Positions 3,366 through 47,146 of a stretch of DNA of 64,000 bases are shown in pieces. The stretch comes from Kineosporia succinea (lineage in GTDB: Bacteria; Actinomycetota; Actinomycetes; Actinomycetales; Kineosporiaceae). The stretch spans positions 4,275,241 through 4,339,240 of the forward strand of contig NZ_JAUSQZ010000001.1 of assembly GCF_030811555.1 (NCBI RefSeq). Reading direction: 5' to 3'. Below the pieces are notes generated by a model. The model had not been told where the DNA came from and ran no database searches. It saw only the letters and a program-made list of their open reading frames with translations. Numbering within the stretch: position 1 is the first letter of the stretch; the number at the start of each line of letters is the position of its first letter. Both the position numbers and the translations under genes were made by a program.

Positions 3366-3410
3366 GCAGAGGTACCCGCTATACCGATTCGGTATGGCGG
3401 GTACCTCTGC
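3366..3410. terminator. Bidirectional terminator hairpin between convergent genes (family A)
   Basis: A 20-bp stem (3366-3385 with 3391-3410, one G:T pair) closes a five-base loop GATTC. It sits between the convergent polyol dehydrogenase and xylulokinase and should terminate both. The loop-proximal part CTATACC/GGTAT is shared with the hairpin at 26033-26077 although the outer arms differ. Confidence 0.75.
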
Positions 3411-10095: not shown

Positions 10096-11019
10096 TCAGC
10101 CCAGTGTGGAGGCGTCGGTGTTGGCGCCGCAGATGATCACCGCGACGCGCTCACCCTCGGCCGGCACGTAGGCCCCGGAGGTGAGGGCCGCGTACGCCGC
10201 CGCCGCGCCGTGCTCGGCCGGAATGCGGTAGTCCGCCCACAATTTGGTGCGCGCCTCGACGATCGCCTCGTCGGTGACCAGCACCGAGGTCGGCTCCGTG
10301 CGCCGGGCCAGGTCCCAGCCGATGTCGCCGATGCGGCGGGCGCCGAGCGAGTCGGCGGCGACGCCGGACACCGAGATGTCGGCCGGCCCGCCGTGGTCCA
10401 GTGCGGACCGCAGGGTGGGGCAGTTCTCCGGCTCGACCGCAACCACCCGGGCCCGGCCCTGTGCGGATGCGGCGATCCCGGCGAACAGCCCGCCGCCGCC
10501 GACCGCGACCACGAGGGTGTCGACCTCGGCGTCGTCGAGGATCTCCTCCGCGACCGTGCCTGCCCCGGCGGCGATCTCCGGCTGGTCGTAGGCGTGGCAG
10601 AACAGGGCGCCGGTGTCGGCCACGTGCTCGATCGCGGCCGCGTAGGCCTCGGCGTACTCGGAGCCCACCTGCACCACCTCGGCCCCGTAGGCCCGCAGTC
10701 GCGCCACCTTCACCGCGGGAGCGGTCTGCGGCACGAACACCGTGGCCCGCACCCCCAGCACCGAGGCCGCGTGGGCGTGGGCCAGCCCGGCGTTGCCGCC
10801 CGACGCCGTGACCACGCCCGCCCCGGCGTCGAGCTCGCCCCGCTCGCGTGCCGCGAGCTGCCGGTTGAACGCGCCCCGGGCCTTGAAAACGCCGGTCCTC
10901 TGCAGGAACTCGCACTTGAACCAGAGCCCGTCAGCCTGCAGTAGCGGGGTGCGGCGCACGTGGCGGGCGATGCGGGTGCCGGCGGTGAGGACATCGTCGC
11001 GGGAGATCACGGCGTTCAC
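10096..11019 (-). CDS. Threonine/serine dehydratase-like PLP enzyme
   Basis: 307 residues of fold-type II PLP enzyme. The cofactor lysine is in VFKARGAFN, the substrate loop is TASGGNAGLA, and the phosphate-binding loop is VAVGGGGLFAGI; the PLP-ring residue is probably the cysteine in VAVIICGANTD. It lacks a C-terminal ACT regulatory domain, so it is a catabolic-type or racemase-like dehydratase rather than an isoleucine-regulated IlvA. It removes water and ammonia from threonine or serine to give an oxo acid (family knowledge). It is an isolated gene; nothing nearby suggests a specific pathway. Confidence 0.85.
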   Translation of the reverse strand: MNAVISRDDVLTAGTRIARHVRRTPLLQADGLWFKCEFLQRTGVFKARGAFNRQLAARERGELDAGAGVVTASGGNAGLAHAHAASVLGVRATVFVPQTAPAVKVARLRAYGAEVVQVGSEYAEAYAAAIEHVADTGALFCHAYDQPEIAAGAGTVAEEILDDAEVDTLVVAVGGGGLFAGIAASAQGRARVVAVEPENCPTLRSALDHGGPADISVSGVAADSLGARRIGDIGWDLARRTEPTSVLVTDEAIVEARTKLWADYRIPAEHGAAAAYAALTSGAYVPAEGERVAVIICGANTDASTLG

Positions 11020-11025
11020 TGTACT

Positions 11026-11245
11026 TCTGAGGGGCGGGCCCGGGCGGCGACTCAGGGGCGGGTTCCGGGCGGCGGCTCAGGGAGGGGTCGAGGGCAGTTC
11101 CGGGCAGCTAAGGGGCGGTTCAGAGGATGGCTCGGCGGGCGGTTCAGGGGACGGTTCAGGGGGCAGTTGAGGGGGCGGCTGAGAGGCTGGCTGAGGGGGT
11201 GGTTCCGGGCAGCGGCCCAGGGGGTGGTCCCGGAGGATGCTCCCG
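11026..11245 (+). repeat. Degenerate GGGCGGTTC-type direct repeats
   Basis: Irregular copies of GGGGCGGTTCCGGGC and GGGCGGTTCAGGGG alternate over about 200 bases upstream of the dehydratase gene start. No coding signal is seen. Together with the elements at 11288-11730 it forms a gene-free, repeat-filled stretch of 766 bases. Confidence 0.5.
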
Positions 11246-11287
11246 GCCGCTCAGCACTCGGTTTGAGCGCATGTGCTCGGGACGGCG

Positions 11288-11331
11288 GACGTCGCTGCTT
11301 TCGATTATCGATAATCGAAAGCAGCGACGTC
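11288..11331. repeat. 44-bp perfect palindrome, family B, copy 1
   Basis: A gap-free 22+22 palindrome. Its AT-rich centre TCGATTATCGATAATCGA contrasts strongly with the surroundings. The inner 28 bp (TGCTTTCGATTATC and its complement) are identical to those of the palindrome at 32461-32504. The outer eight bases of each arm (GACGTCGC and complement) differ from that copy but still pair perfectly. There is no T-tract, so function as terminator, protein-binding site or cruciform is open. Confidence 0.9.
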
Positions 11332-11335
11332 TCGC

Positions 11336-11510
11336 CGTGGTGGGCCGTGCCGTGGTGGGCCGTGCCGTGGTGGGCCGTGCCGTGGTGGGCCGTGCCGTGG
11401 TGGGCCGTGCCGTGGTGGGCCGTGCTGTGGTGGGCCGTGCTGTGGTGGGCCGTGCGGTGGTGGGCCGTGCGGTGGTGGGGCGTGCGGTGGTGGGGCGTGC
11501 CGTGGTGGGA
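11336..11510 (+). repeat. 15-bp tandem array, 11 full copies
   Basis: Unit CGTGGTGGGCCGTGC, with 11 complete copies from 11336 to 11500 and a partial copy to 11510; only the first base and one internal base vary (C/T/G). It begins five bases after the palindrome at 11288-11331. Because 15 is a multiple of three, every frame stays open (for example repeated WWAVP), but such frames have no family and no start context and are not considered genes. Confidence 0.95.
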
Positions 11511-11580
11511 GGGCTAGGGGCGCCGGGTCGTGCGCGGTTCGGGTCGTGCAAGGTGATCGTGTGGGGCGCCGGGTCGTGGG

Positions 11581-11670
11581 GTGCGGGGTCGTGTGGTGCG
11601 GGGTCGTGTGGTGCGGGGTCGTGTGGTGCGGGGTCGTGTGGTGCGGGGTCGTGTGGTGCGGGGTCGTGTG
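11581..11670 (+). repeat. 15-bp tandem array, six perfect copies
   Basis: Unit GTGCGGGGTCGTGTG, six identical copies in a row, 11581-11670, in the same gene-free stretch. Perfect identity suggests recent expansion. Confidence 0.95.
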
Positions 11671-11685
11671 GGGGCCGGATCGTGT

Positions 11686-11730
11686 GCGGTGCGGTGCGGT
11701 GCGGTGCGGTGCGGTGCGGTGCGGTGCGGT
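11686..11730 (+). repeat. 5-bp tandem array (GCGGT)9
   Basis: Nine perfect copies of GCGGT at 11686-11730, fading into GCGGGTCGC. It follows the 15-bp array and lies just downstream of the TetR gene's stop. Confidence 0.95.
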
Positions 11731-11785
11731 GCGGGTCGCCGGTCGCGGGTGGCCGGTCGCGAGTGGCGGGTGGCGGGTCGCGGGG

Positions 11786-12352
11786 TCAGTGCATCGGGCC
11801 GGTCTCGCGGGTGAGGGCCAGCAGCAGGTCTCGGGTCTGGGCGAGTTCGGTGTGGGTGTGGCCGCCCTCGTAGAGCCCGGCGATGGCGGCGCCGTCAGTG
11901 GCCCGCAGGATGAGGGTCACTCGCTGTGGGTCGAGGCCGTCGTCGGCGAAATAGGCCTGCCAGCGGGTCTTGTCCTTGCGCATGACCTCGGCCACGCCCG
12001 GCACCTTCACCACGGCGGCCACCAGGGCCACCTGCTCGGCGGGGGACGCCTCCTCGAAGACCTCGTTGAACGACGCCCGCACGTAGCCGCGCAGCAGCCG
12101 TCCCTCGGCCCGGTCGGTGGGCTCGACCGCCGCCTGCACCGCCTGGTGGAACTGCTCGAGCAGGTCCTCGGCCACCGCCAGGATGAGCCCGTCACGGGAC
12201 TGGAAGTGATGCAGCACACCGCCTTTCGACACCCCGGCCTCGCGCGCGATCGCGTCGATGCTGACCCCGGCCCCCTTCGACGCCACCAGCCGGGCCGCGG
12301 CGTCCAGCACCGTGCGTCGCGTCCTCGCCGGATCGCGCTCGCGTTCCGCCAA
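11786..12352 (-). CDS. TetR family transcriptional regulator
   Basis: 188 residues. The N-terminal helix-turn-helix reads VSIDAIAREAGVSKGGVLHH; the C-terminal helical domain would bind an inducing ligand. The TTG start at 12352 is chosen because GAGGAGG sits about five bases upstream, while in-frame valines further upstream are GTC codons. It is divergent from an MFS exporter, with palindromic operators in the shared gap at 12466-12503, the usual arrangement for a repressor controlling its own efflux pump. Its stop is followed by simple tandem repeats. Confidence 0.9.
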   Translation of the reverse strand: MAERERDPARTRRTVLDAAARLVASKGAGVSIDAIAREAGVSKGGVLHHFQSRDGLILAVAEDLLEQFHQAVQAAVEPTDRAEGRLLRGYVRASFNEVFEEASPAEQVALVAAVVKVPGVAEVMRKDKTRWQAYFADDGLDPQRVTLILRATDGAAIAGLYEGGHTHTELAQTRDLLLALTRETGPMH

Positions 12353-26032: not shown

Positions 26033-26077
26033 ACAGAGACACCCCCTATACCGATCGGGTATAGGGGGTGTCTCTGT
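26033..26077. terminator. Bidirectional terminator hairpin (family A, second copy)
   Basis: A perfect 20-bp stem (26033-26052 with 26058-26077) with loop GATCG, between the convergent SprT-like and GGDEF-EAL genes. The inner CTATACC-GATNG-GGTATAG core matches the hairpin at 3366-3410, which also separates convergent genes. Confidence 0.85.
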
Positions 26078-29956: not shown

Positions 29957-30166
29957 CTAGATGTCGAACTCGCCGTCCCTGGCGCCACCGACGAACGCCT
30001 CCCACTCTGCGCGAGTGAAGGTGAACGGTGTGACATCTGGGTTCTTGCTGTCACGCAAGAGAACGTTCCCCGTGCTTGGCAGCAGGTTCGTGGCTACCTC
30101 GACGCACGCGTTGCCATTACCGCTGCGGCTGCTCTTGAACCATTCGGGAGTGAGGTTCTCCGTCAC
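29957..30166 (-). CDS. DUF397 domain protein
   Basis: 69 residues, the whole length of a DUF397 domain: WFKSSRSGNGNACVEVA near the N-terminus and VLLRDSKNPDVTPFTFTRAE then EWEAFVGGARDGEF at the end. In actinomycetes these small proteins pair with an Scr1-type helix-turn-helix regulator and modulate it. Here the start lies inside the 3' end of that regulator gene (50-base overlap), so translation is coupled. Confidence 0.95.
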   Translation of the reverse strand: MTENLTPEWFKSSRSGNGNACVEVATNLLPSTGNVLLRDSKNPDVTPFTFTRAEWEAFVGGARDGEFDI

Positions 30167-31073
30167 TATGCAGTCCTTCCAGGAAGGTGATGATCAGCAG
30201 ACGACTCGCGTCCGGGTCCAGGCAATTCTTCTGGACGTCCGACCAGACCAGTCGGTAACTGTCTACCTCGGCGGGTTTGGTCAGATACATGGCGCCAGTC
30301 AGCAAGTCAGAGTACGCCATTGGTGGTTCCAGCGGTTCGTCGGTGATCGGGTCGCGGGGGAAATGCAGCAGAATGAATGCGCCGCTCGCGACGCCTCCGT
30401 GCATTCCCGCCGCCCAGGGAACGATGCTTAGTTCGACGTTGAGGCGCTGGGTCACGTCGAGCAGGTGCTGGAGCTGTTCCTCCGCGATGGCGCGGCCCAT
30501 GCCGAGCAGGCGGTGCAGCACGGCCTCGCCCATGGCGACCTCGAGACGGGGAGCCATGGGGCGGGTGAGCAGGGACTGGCGTTCGAGCCGGGCCTGAACG
30601 CGGCGGGCGGCCTCGTCGGCGGCGACGAAGCCCGGAGGGACCTGCATGACCCGCTCCGCGTACGATTTGGTCTGCAGCAGGCCGGGAACCAGCTCCTGCT
30701 CGTAGTACTGGATGACGGCGGCGGAGTCTTCGAGCGAGACGTACATCGCGAACCACGGAGGCAGTGACGTCTCGGTGTAGTCGTGCCACCAGGACTTGCG
30801 AGGTCCGAGGCGCGTCTCCGCGGTGAGGGCCATGAGCACCTCGCGGTCGGTGTCGGTGGCCCGGTACTGCTCCAGCATGTGGCGCACCTGGACGTCGCGG
30901 AACTTCACGCCGTCGGTGCCGTTCTCCATGCGGATGAGAGTGGACTTGCTCAGCTCGACCCGTTCCGCGGCCTGGTCCTGGGTGAGCCCGGCCTGTACGC
31001 GCAACCGTTCGAACTGGCGGCCGATGTGGCGGCGTAGCAAGGCGATTCCGATGGCCCCGGCAGGTTCAGCCAT
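30117..31073 (-). CDS. XRE-family regulator, Scr1/DUF5753 type
   Basis: 318 residues from ATG 31073 (MAEPAGAIG), behind GAAAGG; in-frame upstream ATGs at 31112 and 31097 are alternatives. The N-terminal HTH is LRVQAGLTQDQAAERVELSK then STLIRMENG. The C-terminal DUF5753 domain contains WFAMYVSLEDSAAVIQYYEQ and ELVPGLLQTKSYAERV, typical of Scr1-like regulators. Such proteins control morphological or antibiotic switches with a DUF397 partner (family knowledge), which here is encoded immediately downstream and overlapping. The upstream gap 31113-31246 is distinctly AT-richer than its surroundings and holds a TTGACA (minus strand, 31194-31189) that may be a -35 element. Confidence 0.9.
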   Translation of the reverse strand: MAEPAGAIGIALLRRHIGRQFERLRVQAGLTQDQAAERVELSKSTLIRMENGTDGVKFRDVQVRHMLEQYRATDTDREVLMALTAETRLGPRKSWWHDYTETSLPPWFAMYVSLEDSAAVIQYYEQELVPGLLQTKSYAERVMQVPPGFVAADEAARRVQARLERQSLLTRPMAPRLEVAMGEAVLHRLLGMGRAIAEEQLQHLLDVTQRLNVELSIVPWAAGMHGGVASGAFILLHFPRDPITDEPLEPPMAYSDLLTGAMYLTKPAEVDSYRLVWSDVQKNCLDPDASRLLIITFLEGLHSDGEPHSRMVQEQPQR

Positions 31074-31246
31074 GGTGCTTGACCTTTCCATCTGATTCAT
31101 CTTGTCAGGCAATTGAACACCATCTACCAGCGAGTCTGATTAGGTTGCAGTGATTTGCCGACAGTTTTTCAGCAAACCGCTTCTGATAGTTGTCAATTCG
31201 CCGGGGAAGGAGTTAGATGCCGTCATCTCGAGAAGTGCGGGGTTGA

Positions 31247-31819
31247 TTGATCTTCGCTCGTGCTGCGAGCTCCAACTGCGAGAGAGGCGCGGTGGTGGAG
31301 AATTCAGGGGGATCTGTTCCTGATGTGAAGGCTGGGATTGTCGTGGGGCGTGAACGGCTGCTCCGTGATCCCGGTGGTGAAACGAGCGCTGTTCGTGATC
31401 TTCCGCTTCAGGCGGCGCGTGCCTCCGTAACCCGTCGAGGTGTCAACGGTGTCACCGTTTCCGGCGCCAATTCGGTTGTCTCGACGTTGATCCCGAGAAT
31501 TCTCGGGTCTGCGTCGGACGGTGCCGGGGAATGGGTGGGCCGTTTCCGCATCGACCTGGTGAACGGTCGAGGCTGGCCCGCGCCACCCGCCGAGGTCGAG
31601 GTCCGGCGCGAAAGTGTGCATGTCCGGCACGAATTGGTGGAGGTCGCCGTGATGCCGCGGCGGATCTTCGCCGATTGGCTCTCGAACGCCGCCGCCGGCC
31701 CGATGAAGGTGGGCAACGTCGTGTGGGCCACCCGGCTGGAGGCGCTGGTCCTGACCGTGGGCAGTGCCTGCTATCGGCTGACCGACGACTCGCGGCGCCA
31801 GGTCGTGCTGCTCGTATGA
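31247..31819 (+). CDS. Hypothetical protein, divergent from the Scr1 regulator
   Basis: Up to 190 residues; TTG 31247 or GTG 31292 (VVENSGGS) are possible starts. The first about 90 residues are low-confidence coding. From about 31521 the sequence becomes convincing: GEWVGRFRIDLVNGRGWPAP, VRRESVHVRHELVEVAVMPR, and RIFADWLSNAAAGPMKVGNV up to RLTDDSRRQVVLLV. No family is recognised, no signal peptide or membrane segment is seen, and it reads as a compact beta-rich globular domain. The position next to an Scr1/DUF397 pair makes it a possible target or partner of that switch. Confidence 0.5.
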   Translation: MIFARAASSNCERGAVVENSGGSVPDVKAGIVVGRERLLRDPGGETSAVRDLPLQAARASVTRRGVNGVTVSGANSVVSTLIPRILGSASDGAGEWVGRFRIDLVNGRGWPAPPAEVEVRRESVHVRHELVEVAVMPRRIFADWLSNAAAGPMKVGNVVWATRLEALVLTVGSACYRLTDDSRRQVVLLV

Positions 31820-32271
31820 CCTGCTCCTGGCCTGGCCCCGTCGCTTCTGGCCCCGCTGTTTCTGGCCCGGCCGTTACTGGCCCCGTCGCTTCTGACTCGG
31901 CCGCTTCTGGAGTGGTCGCCTTCTTCGTTCGGCGATCGCGCCCTGACCGTTCGCCGCCGACGTGACCTTGCCGGCCGTCGGCTGTTCGCGATCTGAGGTT
32001 CTGCTGTATCTCCTGAGAGACAGGGGCTTTGGCTACTGATGGCCCGGCTGGTGGGGTCGGCTTCCGGCCTCGCGCGCTGGCTGACTGAAGTGGCTGCCTC
32101 AAGCGGCTGACCTACTGGCTGACCTACTACCGCCTGTCTTGCGGACTGACCTACTGCCTGTCTTACAGACCGACTTGCCGGCTGGCCGCGGTATGGCTCT
32201 GTTTCCGGACTCGCTGTTCCCCGACTTTCGATTCGCCGTCGCCGATCTCGATGACGAGTCCCCTTGAACGG
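31820..32271. other. Non-coding stretch with short dispersed repeats
   Basis: No convincing gene. It contains copies of a 15-bp unit like CGCTTCTGGCCCCGT between 31845 and 31915, and three to four copies of CTGACCTACTG with CCTGTCTTRC between 32107 and 32170. It is the left part of a 1.24-kb gene-free island (31820-33058). Confidence 0.6.
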
Positions 32272-32341
32272 CTCGGCCCCCACTGGCGCGTATCCCTCCA
32301 CGCGTCTGTCCTGGTTGGACGCGGTGGGGGCCGAGTCTTTT
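32272..32341 (+). terminator. Orphan intrinsic terminator or small-RNA 3' end
   Basis: CTCGGCCCCCAC (32272-32283) pairs perfectly with GTGGGGGCCGAG (32324-32335), followed by TCTTTTTG, a real T-tract rare in this GC-rich window. The 40-base loop can fold further. The nearest gene on this strand ends 450 bases upstream, so it may end a long 3' UTR or an unannotated small RNA. Confidence 0.5.
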
Positions 32342-32460
32342 TGCCCGCCGAGCCGCTCGTCGCATGTGCCCGTTAGGGCAAGTGATCCGCCCACATGCTG
32401 CCTTCGTGAGTGGTAGTGGAAGTGCGGCCTGCTGTCGACTGGGTATGGGCGCTGGACTCG

Positions 32461-32504
32461 GATGGTGGTGCTTTCGATTATCGATAATCGAAAGCACCAC
32501 CATC
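32461..32504. repeat. 44-bp perfect palindrome, family B, copy 2
   Basis: A gap-free 22+22 palindrome with the same inner 28 bp as the one at 11288-11331 and different but self-complementary outer eight bases (GATGGTGG and complement). It is followed by tandem arrays from 32650, again as at 11.3 kb. Confidence 0.9.
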
Positions 32505-32649
32505 TTGCCTCCCGCACCGCCGCCCCAAAAGCACGGCAGCGGTGTGGGGAGAGGGCTCTCCGGTAGCGCTCGCACAATGCCGGAAGGGTTTGCCTGGCTG
32601 CCCATGAATCGGGAAGGTCGCTGCTGAGTCCCGGGCGGCCGGCTCCAGG

Positions 32650-32725
32650 CAAGGCGACCAGCTCCGGGCAGGGCGGCCAGCTCCGGGCAGGGCGGCCAGC
32701 TCCGGGCAGGGCGGCCAGCTCGAGC
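32650..32725 (+). repeat. 19-bp tandem array
   Basis: About four copies of CAGCTCCGGGCAGGGCGGC, with the first copy diverged (AGGCAAGGCGAC) and the last fading into CTCGAGCGGG. Gene-free. Confidence 0.9.
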
Positions 32726-33055
32726 GGGTCGGAGCAGGGTCAGAGCGGGCCGGGTCGGAGCGAGCCGGGTCGGCCGGGGCGGGCGGGTCAGAGCGGCCGG
32801 GTCAGAGCGGGCCGGGTCAGAGCGGGCCGGGTCAGAGCGGGCCGGGCTGGCCAGGTCAGAGCAGGTCAGAGCAGGTCAGAGCAGGTCAGAGCAGGTCAGA
32901 GCAGGTCAGAGCAGGCCGGGGCCGCCGCGTCGGAGCGAGCCGTGGCGGCCTAGGCGGGCGGGGTCAGAGCGGGCCGGGGGTGGCGGGGCGGGCAGGTCAG
33001 AGCAGGCCGGGGCGGGCAGGTATGGGCGGGGACTGGGCCCATACCTGCCCCGGAT
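32726..33055 (+). repeat. Mixed 15-bp and 10-bp tandem arrays before the RecQ-like gene
   Basis: Degenerate 15-bp units GTCAGAGCGGGCCGG (four good copies around 32788-32848) merge into a perfect 10-bp array GCAGGTCAGA (six copies, 32851-32910) and then decay again to 33050. GTCAGAGC is common to both unit types, suggesting one arose from the other. The array ends a few bases before the stop codon of the RecQ-like gene on the other strand. Confidence 0.9.
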
Positions 33056-33058
33056 GTC

Positions 33059-35227
33059 TTAGCCGGCGGCCAGGACCAGCGGACGGACCGCCGTGGCTCC
33101 CGCCTGACGCAGCTGCCGGGCGGCGACCGTGAGCGTCCAGCCGGTGATGGTGCGGTCGTCGATGAGGAGGACTGACCGTCCTTCGACGCCGCCTGCCGAC
33201 CCGGGGCCGGTCTCGGTGGGCTCGGGTTCGCTCGGAGTCAGCTGATAGCGGTTGGCCACGGCCTTGACCCGGTGTGCCGAGTTCGCGGCGCCCTCTCCCG
33301 GGGTGGACGCGGGGTCTGGCACCAGCCGGGCCGTGATGGGCAGGCGCAGGTACTTGGACAGGCCCTCGGCGAGGTGCCGGACCAGCTGCGGCCGGGAGAC
33401 CGACTCGATCACCACGATGCAGTCGGGCCGCTCGGGCAGTTCCCAGGCATCGATCACCGCGACGATGGCGTGTCGCAGCGGCACTGGCACCTCGCCGTCA
33501 GGCGTCTCGGGGTTGAAGAGCGCCCGCAGTTGCGCACCCCAGCCGAGATCGGTGACTCCTGCGATCGCGCGCCCGGTCTCGGCCTGCTCGCCCGGCGCGA
33601 TGCGGCCCTTCAACGGCACGCCGAGCTCGGCCATGCCGTTCGGCCACTGCCGCCGCGCGTCGACCGCCACACCTGGCCGGTTCAGCACCTCTCCGGCGGT
33701 CTCGACGTCGGACCCGTCCACCGTCAGTTCGAACTGGACCCCACCACAGCGGTCGCAGCGCCCGCAGGCCTCGGCGACCGCGTCGTCCAAAGTGCGCCGC
33801 AAGAACTGCATCCGGCACCCGGACGTGTTGACGTAATCGAGCATCGACTGCTCTTCGGCCCGTCGGGTGGCCCGCACCCGCTCGTACCGCTCCTCGTCGT
33901 ACTGCCACGGCTGACCGGTGCTGAGCCAGCCACCACGCACCCGCTGCACCGCACCGTCGACGTCGAGCACCTTCAGCATCATGTCCAGCCGGGAGCGGCT
34001 CAGGTCGACCTGGGTCTCCAGCAGCATCGTCGACATCGGCCCGTCGCGCCCGGCCAGCGCATCGAGCGTGGCCCGCACCTGGTGCTCGGCAGGAAAAGCG
34101 AGACCCGCGAAGTAGTTCCAGACCTCACGATCTTCGCGGCCCGGCAGCAGCACCACCGTCGCCTGCGAGAGCCCACGCCCCGCACGGCCCACCTGCTGGT
34201 AATAGGCGATCGGCGAGGGCGGCGCCCCGAGGTGGATCACGAACCCCAGGTCAGGCTTGTCGAAACCCATGCCCAGCGCCGAGGTCGCGACCAGCGCCTT
34301 GACCCGGTTGCCCAGCAGATCGGCCTCAGCGGTGCGGCGCTGGGTCTCCTCGGTCTGCCCGGAGTAGGCCGCCACCTCGTAACCGGCCGCCCGCAGGTGC
34401 TCCGAGACCTGCTCGGTCGCCGCGACCGTGAGGCAGTAGATGATGCCTGAGCCGGGAAGGGTCTTGAGGTTCTCGGCGAGCCAGGCCAGACGCTGTGCGG
34501 GAGAGGGTAGTTCGACCACCCCGAGGTGCAGCGAGTCCCGGTCGAGCGTGCCCCGCAGAACCAGCACATCGTCAAGCGTCGACGTGCCGGTGACCGACAA
34601 CTGCTCGGCGACGTCGGCCGTCACCCGTTCGTTGGCCGTGGCCGTGGTGGCCAGCACCGGCACCCCGGCCGGCAACTCGGCCAGCAGCGTGCGGATACGC
34701 CGGTAGTCGGGCCGGAAGTCGTGCCCCCAGTCGGAGACACAGTGCGCCTCGTCGATCACGACCAGGCCGGTGGCACCCGTCAGCTGGGGGAGCGCCCGCT
34801 CGCGGAAGTCGGGGTTGTTCAGCCGCTCCGGTGACACGAGCAGCACGTCAACCTCACCGGCGTCGATCGCGCGGTAGACCTCGGCCCACTCGTCGAGGTT
34901 CGACGAGTTGACCGTGACAGCGCGGATGCCCGCCCGCTCGGCCGCCGCGATCTGGTTGCGCATCAGCGCCAGCAGCGGCGAGATGATGATCGTGGGGCCG
35001 ACCCCGGCCGCCCGCAGCAGGGCGGTGGCCACGAAGTACACCGCCGACTTACCCCAGCCGGTGCGCTGCACCACCAGGGCCCGCCGGTGATCGACCACCA
35101 GCGCCTCGATCGCCGCCCACTGATCGTCGTGCAGCCGGGCCTCCGGCCGCCCGACCAGCGCGCGCAGCGACTCCTCCGCGCGGTCGCGGACCTCTTGGTT
35201 ACGGCTCGCCGCAGCTGTCATCGTCAC
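33059..35227 (-). CDS. RecQ-family DNA helicase with C-terminal phosphoribosyltransferase-like domain
   Basis: 722 residues. Helicase motifs: RTGWGKSAVYFV (I, Walker A variant TGWGKS), VLLVSPERL, VVIDEAHCVSDWGHDFRPDY (II, DEAH then the RecQ aromatic loop), ATTATANERV (III), GMGFDKPDLGFVIHLGAPPS and QVGRAGRG (V, VI). A zinc-binding set SGCRMQFLRR ... CGRCDRCGG follows. The last 40 residues VLLIDDRTITGWTLTVAARQ plus LVLAAG match the PRPP loop of phosphoribosyltransferases. GTG 35227 has GGGAGGG eight bases upstream; ATG 35221 is an alternative. It unwinds DNA 3'-5' in repair (family knowledge). Confidence 0.9.
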   Translation of the reverse strand: MTMTAAASRNQEVRDRAEESLRALVGRPEARLHDDQWAAIEALVVDHRRALVVQRTGWGKSAVYFVATALLRAAGVGPTIIISPLLALMRNQIAAAERAGIRAVTVNSSNLDEWAEVYRAIDAGEVDVLLVSPERLNNPDFRERALPQLTGATGLVVIDEAHCVSDWGHDFRPDYRRIRTLLAELPAGVPVLATTATANERVTADVAEQLSVTGTSTLDDVLVLRGTLDRDSLHLGVVELPSPAQRLAWLAENLKTLPGSGIIYCLTVAATEQVSEHLRAAGYEVAAYSGQTEETQRRTAEADLLGNRVKALVATSALGMGFDKPDLGFVIHLGAPPSPIAYYQQVGRAGRGLSQATVVLLPGREDREVWNYFAGLAFPAEHQVRATLDALAGRDGPMSTMLLETQVDLSRSRLDMMLKVLDVDGAVQRVRGGWLSTGQPWQYDEERYERVRATRRAEEQSMLDYVNTSGCRMQFLRRTLDDAVAEACGRCDRCGGVQFELTVDGSDVETAGEVLNRPGVAVDARRQWPNGMAELGVPLKGRIAPGEQAETGRAIAGVTDLGWGAQLRALFNPETPDGEVPVPLRHAIVAVIDAWELPERPDCIVVIESVSRPQLVRHLAEGLSKYLRLPITARLVPDPASTPGEGAANSAHRVKAVANRYQLTPSEPEPTETGPGSAGGVEGRSVLLIDDRTITGWTLTVAARQLRQAGATAVRPLVLAAG

Positions 35228-47104: not shown

Positions 47105-47146
47105 GAAATGATGGACGACGCGGAGCTCCACGTCGTCCACCATTTT
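47105..47146. terminator. Bidirectional terminator between hemW and the DUF4870 gene
   Basis: An imperfect palindrome centred at 47125/47126 with GGAGCTCC in the middle and GATGGACGACG/CGTCGTCCACC arms (two mismatches). The outer GAAA/TTTT gives A and U tracts in both directions, fitting the convergent gene pair it separates (stops at 47097 and 47151). Confidence 0.75.

Follow-up and report, generated by a model that had tools for sequence, protein, structure and literature searches.

A dispersed family of palindromes with matched arms, centered in array-rich intergenic DNA of Kineosporia succinea

Two perfect 44-bp palindromes in a stretch of 64,000 nucleotides of the Kineosporia succinea genome, referred to here as the window, belong to a dispersed family of 42 that is most likely species-specific. 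The two arms of a copy vary together, half-sites never occur on their own, the copies keep their distance from genes, and each one tested lies in a halo of tandem arrays that is centered on the palindrome and has mirrored polarity. Each element can fold as a hairpin or cruciform in which a near-fixed, AT-rich tip of 28 bp surmounts a base that is variable yet paired. Tentatively, we favor the explanation that these are dispersed hairpin elements around which new DNA has gathered, through an action at the DNA level by local synthesis and template switching. The host genome comprises 8,065,021 bases in a single contig, and the window corresponds to its positions 4275241-4339240.

The palindromes occupy positions 11288..11331 and 32461..32504 of the window, neither being assigned to a strand, and as the original prediction held, both are built as 22+22 bases with zero spacer and 100% complementarity. 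They have the inner 28 bp in common, TGCTTTCGATTATCGATAATCGAAAGCA (core at 11296-11323 and at 32469-32496), which matches twice in the window and not once in 100 shuffles. The outer eight bases are indeed unlike, GACGTCGC versus GATGGTGG, the complete pairs of arms being GACGTCGC/GCGACGTC in the first member and GATGGTGG/CCACCATC in the second. RNA folding of both strands of both palindromes gave z-scores of -7.4 to -10.0, and Rfam covariance models at gathering score returned no match in the window or in the 7 loci scanned out of the 39 others of the family that were fetched. The first member lies in a gene-free interval (11020..11785) between a PLP-dependent enzyme gene on its left (10096-11019, minus strand) and a TetR-type regulator gene on its right (11786-12310, minus strand). 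Its left array field (11030..11180) was reported by TRF and has 25- and 24-bp units in 2-3 copies each; its right field (11334..11784) holds 15-bp (x11.7), 15-bp (x7.5), 5-bp (x10.2) and 7-bp (x7.7) units and is G-rich on the plus strand, which is the strand running outward from the palindrome. The interval around the second member (31005..33058) extends from a helix-turn-helix/DUF5753 gene (30117-31004, minus strand) on the left to a DEAD-box helicase gene (33059-35227, minus strand; weak match to RecQ zinc-binding) on the right, and here TRF found a 30-bp unit (x1.9) on the left at 31847..31903 and a right field at 32633..32915 with 19-bp (x4.7), 15-bp (x7.2) and 10-bp (x6.4) units.

The window also holds other hairpins that recur. 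A second repeated type, AATGRKGGACG...CGTCCMYCATT, has a fixed base and a variable tip and seems to be one of the genus's ordinary terminators; its copies (window 47106-47145; L090:13061-13108; L095:14483-14536; L099:2625-2677; L109:17511-17545) are situated some 20 bp or less from stop codons, and related GGACG...CGTCC hairpins are present in relatives. A third type with a CTATACC-like tip occurs at window positions 3366-3410 and 26033-26077 and at L106:5287-5339, with convergent genes around two of the three.

Searched in its own genome at up to 3 mismatches, the core CTTTCGATTATCGATAATCGAAAG gave 41 copies, 29 of them exact, while a reversed control pattern gave 0. The original prediction had named numerous copies with differing but matched arms as the outcome that would speak for a family, and a family is what the genome-wide search revealed; a local duplication consisting of only two copies is ruled out by the 41. 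The wider pattern TTTCGA..TCGAAA recovers all 41, one more copy with a lengthened center at 5290899 and only 2 unrelated places, so that the family is sharply delimited at 42 members. The context counts given below cover 41 copies, the copy at 5290899 entering none of them. The exact 12-base half-site CTTTCGATTATC occurs 70 times, always inside family members, and solitary half-sites number 0. There are no tight clusters, the closest pair of copies being about 6 kb apart, and the fixed core is AT-rich in a genome of 70% GC. The lengthened center, ATCGACTATCGAT, is nearly alike in two members (G000:C1:3276629-3276657 and 5290899-5290927) and may record slippage of the template in the tip of the hairpin.

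At up to 2 mismatches the core had 0 copies in five other genomes of the genus and in 12 other genomes of the family Kineosporiaceae. A genome-contig collection did not contain the exact 22-base core, nor viral contigs the exact 24-base one, both collections perhaps lacking this genome or very near ones. In phage and plasmid collections no record matched at least 80% of the 44 bp. Presence in phages, plasmids and viral contigs was thus rejected, matches being partial and at chance level or absent. An equivalent family in other Kineosporia was likewise sought, and the samples from four of them (G002-G005, 364-400 kb each) gave other repeats instead. An 81-bp inverted-repeat element, GTGATCATGCAAAACCTCCCCGG with an inner GTTCTAGAAC, recurs in K. 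mesophila (G003; L050:16079-16159, L061:4309-4389, L066:16771-16851) and in G005 (L215:5995-6075, L217:16303-16383); it displays some compensated stem changes, and in G003 several short forms lie 6-16 bp from stop codons. In G004 there is an AT-rich two-copy hairpin, GTGTAAACAAAG...CTTTGTTTACAC (L082:240-286 and L265 ~1498-1543), one copy of which is found about 260 bp past dinB. The orthologous dinB of K. succinea faces a family member, and the DinB protein has a best-segment identity of 90% with K. mesophila and 85% with K. babensis.

Aligned on their center, the copies are nearly invariant at arm positions 1-14, and conservation fades outward. Pairing of the arms was counted in 40 copies, after omission from the 41 of the one whose center is changed. 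At positions 15-22, 227 of 320 cells form Watson-Crick pairs, compared with at most 180 across 10,000 permutations. Position 15 pairs in 36/40 copies (15.1 expected) and does so with all four pair types (GC 15, CG 16, AT 4, TA 1), and positions 17-20 are paired in 30, 28, 22 and 22 copies, where 18.8, 18.3, 10.6 and 10.3 are expected. At position 23 pairing matches the control, at 24 it is slightly up and from 25 outward it is near control, and the paired arms of individual copies extend 12-25 bp from the center. Pairing within copies thus exceeds pairing between copies; the arms covary, as had been proposed from the two window palindromes, and are not uncoupled. This coupling argues against plain recognition of two independent half-sites, and calls for either a folded strand, of RNA or DNA, or the copying of one arm from the other.

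Among 40 copies there are 34 distinct right-arm hexamers. Across 41 copies the right side nevertheless has preferences, with C at position 16 in 38/41, exclusively A or G at position 17 and T at position 21 in 32/41, which points to selection or common descent besides copying. A consensus and a pairing requirement or habit operate jointly in the arms. The AT-rich part of the palindrome is its tip and not its base, and farther out the right flank is enriched in T at positions 21-22 and the left flank in A, although the T rarely forms a run. The statement that a T-tract is lacking accordingly holds for the two window copies but not for the family as a whole, in which T stands on the right side at position 21 in 32/41 and at position 22 in 22/41 copies. 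Past the first mismatch, pairing drops to 0.36 over six positions, and this would be compatible with short-tract copying and with a required stem length alike.

Tandem arrays had been noted beside the two window palindromes, and the same is true of all copies tested: 41/41 have a minisatellite array within 600 bp, 27 of them on both sides and 14 on one. Control positions, taken every 10 bp in intergenic DNA and hence non-independent, have an array within this distance in 42% of the 3,057 away from copies and in 55% of all 4,638. Gaps of at least 400 bp hold an array in 12/12 cases with a copy versus 17/41 without. The control set for arrays, gaps and placement was drawn around family members, and on that account a palindrome-free set of 400 kb was added, in which arrays make up 5.1% of intergenic DNA and occur in 6/27 gaps of at least 400 bp and in 0/7 gaps of 700-1200 bp. 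In the samples of four relatives they cover 1.6-4.3% of intergenic DNA. Around the palindromes, array cover rises from 0.09 at 20-60 bp to 0.47 at 180-260 bp, is highest between 140 and 260 bp, fades out by 600-700 bp and amounts to 0.01-0.04 past 660 bp. By this profile the arrays, described in the original prediction as surroundings, prove to be centered on the palindrome.

The composition of the halo was compared within and between loci. BLAST of left against right flanks at 41 loci detected no similarity in direct orientation, and inverted similarity in four; there is consequently no sign of a palindrome landing within an existing array, and insertion into pre-existing arrays was rejected. 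Between loci, the flanks matched each other in four short stretches, which involve three locus pairs. A common halo motif was considered and dismissed, since the top 8-mers are explicable by G-rich composition on a rough estimate. The same applies to copying of halo sequence out of the flanking genes, for which there was one similarity in 41 loci and array-spanned gene edges in 5/79; array units can take in the end of a neighboring gene, as at 2688344 and 597862. With respect to polarity, 79 of 111 arrays are G-rich on the outward strand, 29 are C-rich and 3 balanced (79/108, p 1.6e-6). Counted by halves, the outward G excess is weak (49/79, binomial p 0.04; mean 0.091, t-test p 5e-4). Mean outward skew is 0.101 in the 32 halves that face a gene start and 0.084 in the 47 that face a stop, versus approximately 0 in control gaps (p 0.003 and 0.051, respectively). 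Since the skew is positive facing starts as well as stops, the polarity is independent of the direction of the flanking gene. Rho-type C-rich entry sites were rejected as its cause, given that mean polarity facing gene starts is no weaker. Growth of the arrays from the palindrome side was also rejected, as their uniformity follows no gradient (of 42 arrays, 16 are more and 17 less uniform toward the palindrome; p 0.41).

If the DNA around the copies is new, relatives should have shorter gaps at the same places. Both neighbors are conserved and adjacent at 5/41 loci, none of them divergent, and at these the gap in K. succinea is longer by 496-991 bp. The gap measures 616 bp versus 3 bp in a relative at locus 2688344, 680 bp versus 24 bp in two relatives at 4915174, 1347 bp versus 365 at 5232382, 1133 bp versus 142 at 4743132, and 697 bp versus 66-201 bp in all five relatives at 597862, a locus chosen before the result was known. 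Among 38 comparable palindrome-free pairs, 0 are 300 bp longer here and 4 are at least 300 bp shorter, the median difference being -3. Most of the gene-free DNA at the five comparable loci (intervals of 0.6-1.3 kb) has no counterpart in the relatives. Loci at which one neighbor is conserved gave mixed results. Relatives are shorter at 5311703 (133 versus 635 here), 5250435 (263 versus 648) and 2813941 (0 versus 594), and at 4903987 three of four sampled relatives have 63, 26 and 152 versus 432 here, with no gene in G004 across 540 bp up to the contig end; at 2623697 it is G005 that is longer, 763 versus 324 here, beyond a weakly called gene. Both genes flanking locus 233640 are present in G004 about 4 kb apart, and those flanking 5403055 matched different places in relatives and offer no comparable orthologous gap.

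An alternative reading places the action in RNA. The palindromes would be bidirectional intrinsic terminators or insulators, with an RNA hairpin whose base is kept by pairing and with A-left and T-right flanks serving as short two-way U-tracts; such an element would have replaced an ancestral terminator, and would end gene-derived or stray transcripts in long gaps. We regard this as unlikely, although it is the alternative we take most seriously. A terminator would be expected to have such a paired base with T next to it on the right (positions 21-22) and A on the left, and terminators with compensated stems are on record (PMC5381666). The best single point is locus 597862, where the short gaps of 5/5 relatives contain a GC-rich terminator-like hairpin (stem score 11-29) and the gap here has the palindrome alone. 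Similarly, G002, a relative, carries a hairpin of this kind at 5311703, 15 bp from the stop, which is missing at that place here. The idea that the core was inserted in the loop of an older terminator, which arose from the hairpins at 597862, was rejected because the arms, judged by eye, are without the relatives' stem sequence. Placement speaks on both sides (n=41), with 16 copies between convergent genes, 10 between divergent genes, 12 between genes in tandem and 3 with a called gene on just one side; the divergent cases, which count against a terminator, are backed in 6 of 10 by Pfam matches in both neighbors. The distance to genes is a further difficulty. No called gene is nearer than 85 bp (median 299 bp), and stops lie at a median of 342 bp, whereas of the 23 other intergenic hairpins in the same 464 kb with a stem score of at least 15, 14 are found within 20 bp of a stop; for random intergenic placements the median distance to a gene is 152 bp, and 64% of them are at least 85 bp away. 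These figures rest on a home-made three-periodic gene model trained on this genome, whose proteins had a Pfam match at E 0.001 in 27/30 cases (26 above curated cut-off) and which puts 0/41 copies within a called gene; a cruder first ORF list had put 3/41 within ORFs and some others less than 85 bp from one. Moreover, the T-tract is weak, a terminator scan reports neither 44-bp hairpin whole, and a fixed 28-bp tip is not required for termination. A hairpin near the stop is no rarer in genes that face a copy (11/47) than in others (35/178), and the relative's gap yielded no hairpin scoring 11 or more at three of the five loci compared. The distance from genes and the divergent placements imply that the family is not simply the terminator of its neighbors, and the proposal of a terminator class is weakened accordingly. 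If the palindrome is a terminator nonetheless, it is one with a fixed tip that replaced the relatives' hairpin at one locus at least.

Two other rivals keep the action in DNA. The palindromes could be mobile repeats of a REP- or MITE-like kind, moved by an enzyme in trans, with arms derived from or adapted to the target and arrays arising later by decay of the insertion site; the decaying sites would be the tolerated ones, away from genes. Such a repeat would account for near-identical dispersed cores confined to one genome, for placement that avoids genes and for DNA that is new relative to relatives at five comparable loci. A comparable repeat, the 81-bp element, exists in G003 and G005, and with 42 copies the family does consist of dispersed extragenic palindromes in large number, as REP elements do. 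We still find mobility improbable. A search confined to the Y1 class of transposases (PF01797) had 0 matches in the genome, whereas a control search found PF01797 in 5/14 named genomes. The tags typical of REP are rare within 20 nt outside the core (GTAG 1/41, CGTC 3/41), and REP/RAYT mobility was rejected on these two grounds. The longest flanking direct repeat averages 3.46 versus 3.44 with shuffled partners (41 copies), so that target duplications do not rise above chance. Conservation is central and fades outward in place of a conserved outer boundary, unlike the terminal inverted repeats of a MITE, and the phage, plasmid and viral searches described above give no hint of a carrier. Finally, copying of the whole element would carry the arms along, yet there are 34 different right-arm hexamers in 40 copies. 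For the original suggestion of a mobile palindromic element, then, none of the signs of a transposase (Y1 enzyme, target duplication, REP tag) turned up. The other rival, and the one we rate lowest of all, is a binding or cruciform site of a chromosome-organizing or replication factor, the arrays serving as additional binding units or resulting from blocked replication forks. An AT-rich fixed core in a 70% GC genome and the lack of half-sites outside dyads fit dyad recognition. A cluster of parS-like sites (G000:C1:2424122-2439034) probably marks the origin region, and the probable oriC so placed has 9/42 copies no more than 0.4 Mb away, versus 4.2 expected, an excess that is small and was spotted post hoc. 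The suggested chromosome-organization site has in this way received weak positional support only. A protein reading double-stranded half-sites would, however, not couple the arms of one copy, and no common motif stood out in the array fields when composition was allowed for by a rough estimate.

In the DNA-level explanation that we tentatively favor, the palindrome would have come first and the arrays later. The arrays are centered, no unit is common to both sides and their polarity is mirrored, and from this we infer that the palindrome is most likely the older of the two. In bacterial quasipalindromes, template switching can make arms perfect. During copying, the hairpin may stall or be cut, leading to local repair synthesis and template switching; this would rewrite one arm from the other, such that arms stay matched while their sequence drifts, and would leave tandem duplications on either side within about 500 bp. 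Synthesis around a stalled or cut hairpin would in this manner account jointly for arms, arrays and polarity. The near-invariant core would be best explained by sequence-specific recognition by some factor, or by a recent spread of the core. Counting against the DNA-level mechanism are the mixed gap comparisons at loci with one conserved neighbor, the flat uniformity of the arrays, the lack of a link between core integrity and gap length (median gap 875 for intact and 1017 for variant cores, the latter being 11/38, so that intact cores do not have the longer gaps), and array-rich gaps without a palindrome, of which the palindrome-free 400 kb contain 11 with at least 100 bp of array. Another such region, L239:2527-6134, is a 3.6-kb gap without called genes that has 744 bp of arrays and no palindrome. 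A more specific proposal, which we consider quite improbable, is that a core-specific factor repeatedly starts outward synthesis in both directions, building the G-rich-outward arrays and rewriting the arms, and that this amounts to de novo growth of non-coding DNA. If this were true, genes lying a few to a few hundred bp apart would end up about 1 kilobase apart.

To our knowledge, the origin of new intergenic DNA and of minisatellites in compact bacterial genomes is poorly understood. From this family it seems possible that growth of non-coding DNA is marked or seeded by a tiny hairpin. It provides some 42 natural replicates in one genome, with a shared center and differing surroundings, and the relatives show the likely earlier state at several of them; together, replicates and relatives make the seeding of new DNA by hairpins directly testable. 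In the open-access literature, no paper on the family or on a palindrome-centered arrangement of arrays appeared among the matches listed.

Several known systems resemble the family in part. According to PMC3733652, REP elements fall into GTAG- and CGTC-tagged families, the former with a Y1 (RAYT) transposase and the latter without a dedicated one; sub-families have alternative complementary stem residues, and stems of the GTAG families are mostly 6-9 bp, with 12-13 bp in one. The palindromes described here are like these in being short, dispersed and extragenic with family-specific cores. They differ by having no GTAG/CGTC tag and no Y1 (RAYT-type) transposase in the genome, by arms that pair over 12-25 bp, by the lack of close clusters and by arrays near 41/41 copies. 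With bidirectional intrinsic terminators that have compensated stems (PMC5381666), they have in common A/T-leaning flanks, a base that varies with compensation and the hairpin swap at locus 597862, but the near-invariant 28-bp tip, the distance from genes and the divergent placement set them apart. Prokaryotic satellites, in the available sections of PMC6749651, are likewise tandem arrays in bacterial genomes; here, in contrast, the arrays are palindrome-centered and their two sides are without direct-orientation similarity. Palindrome-centered arrays are not described in those sections of this satellite survey, nor in the corresponding excerpts of a stem-loop survey (PMC1590033) and a palindrome review (PMC7999016). 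The latter, within the same excerpts, treats fragile palindromes and quasipalindrome template switching, to which the family is similar in its hairpin-forming perfect palindromes, in arms that can be perfected by copying and in the instability of neighboring DNA. Unlike those cases, the family repeats one core at 42 loci and has arrays flanking each tested copy, on one side or both, with a mirrored polarity.
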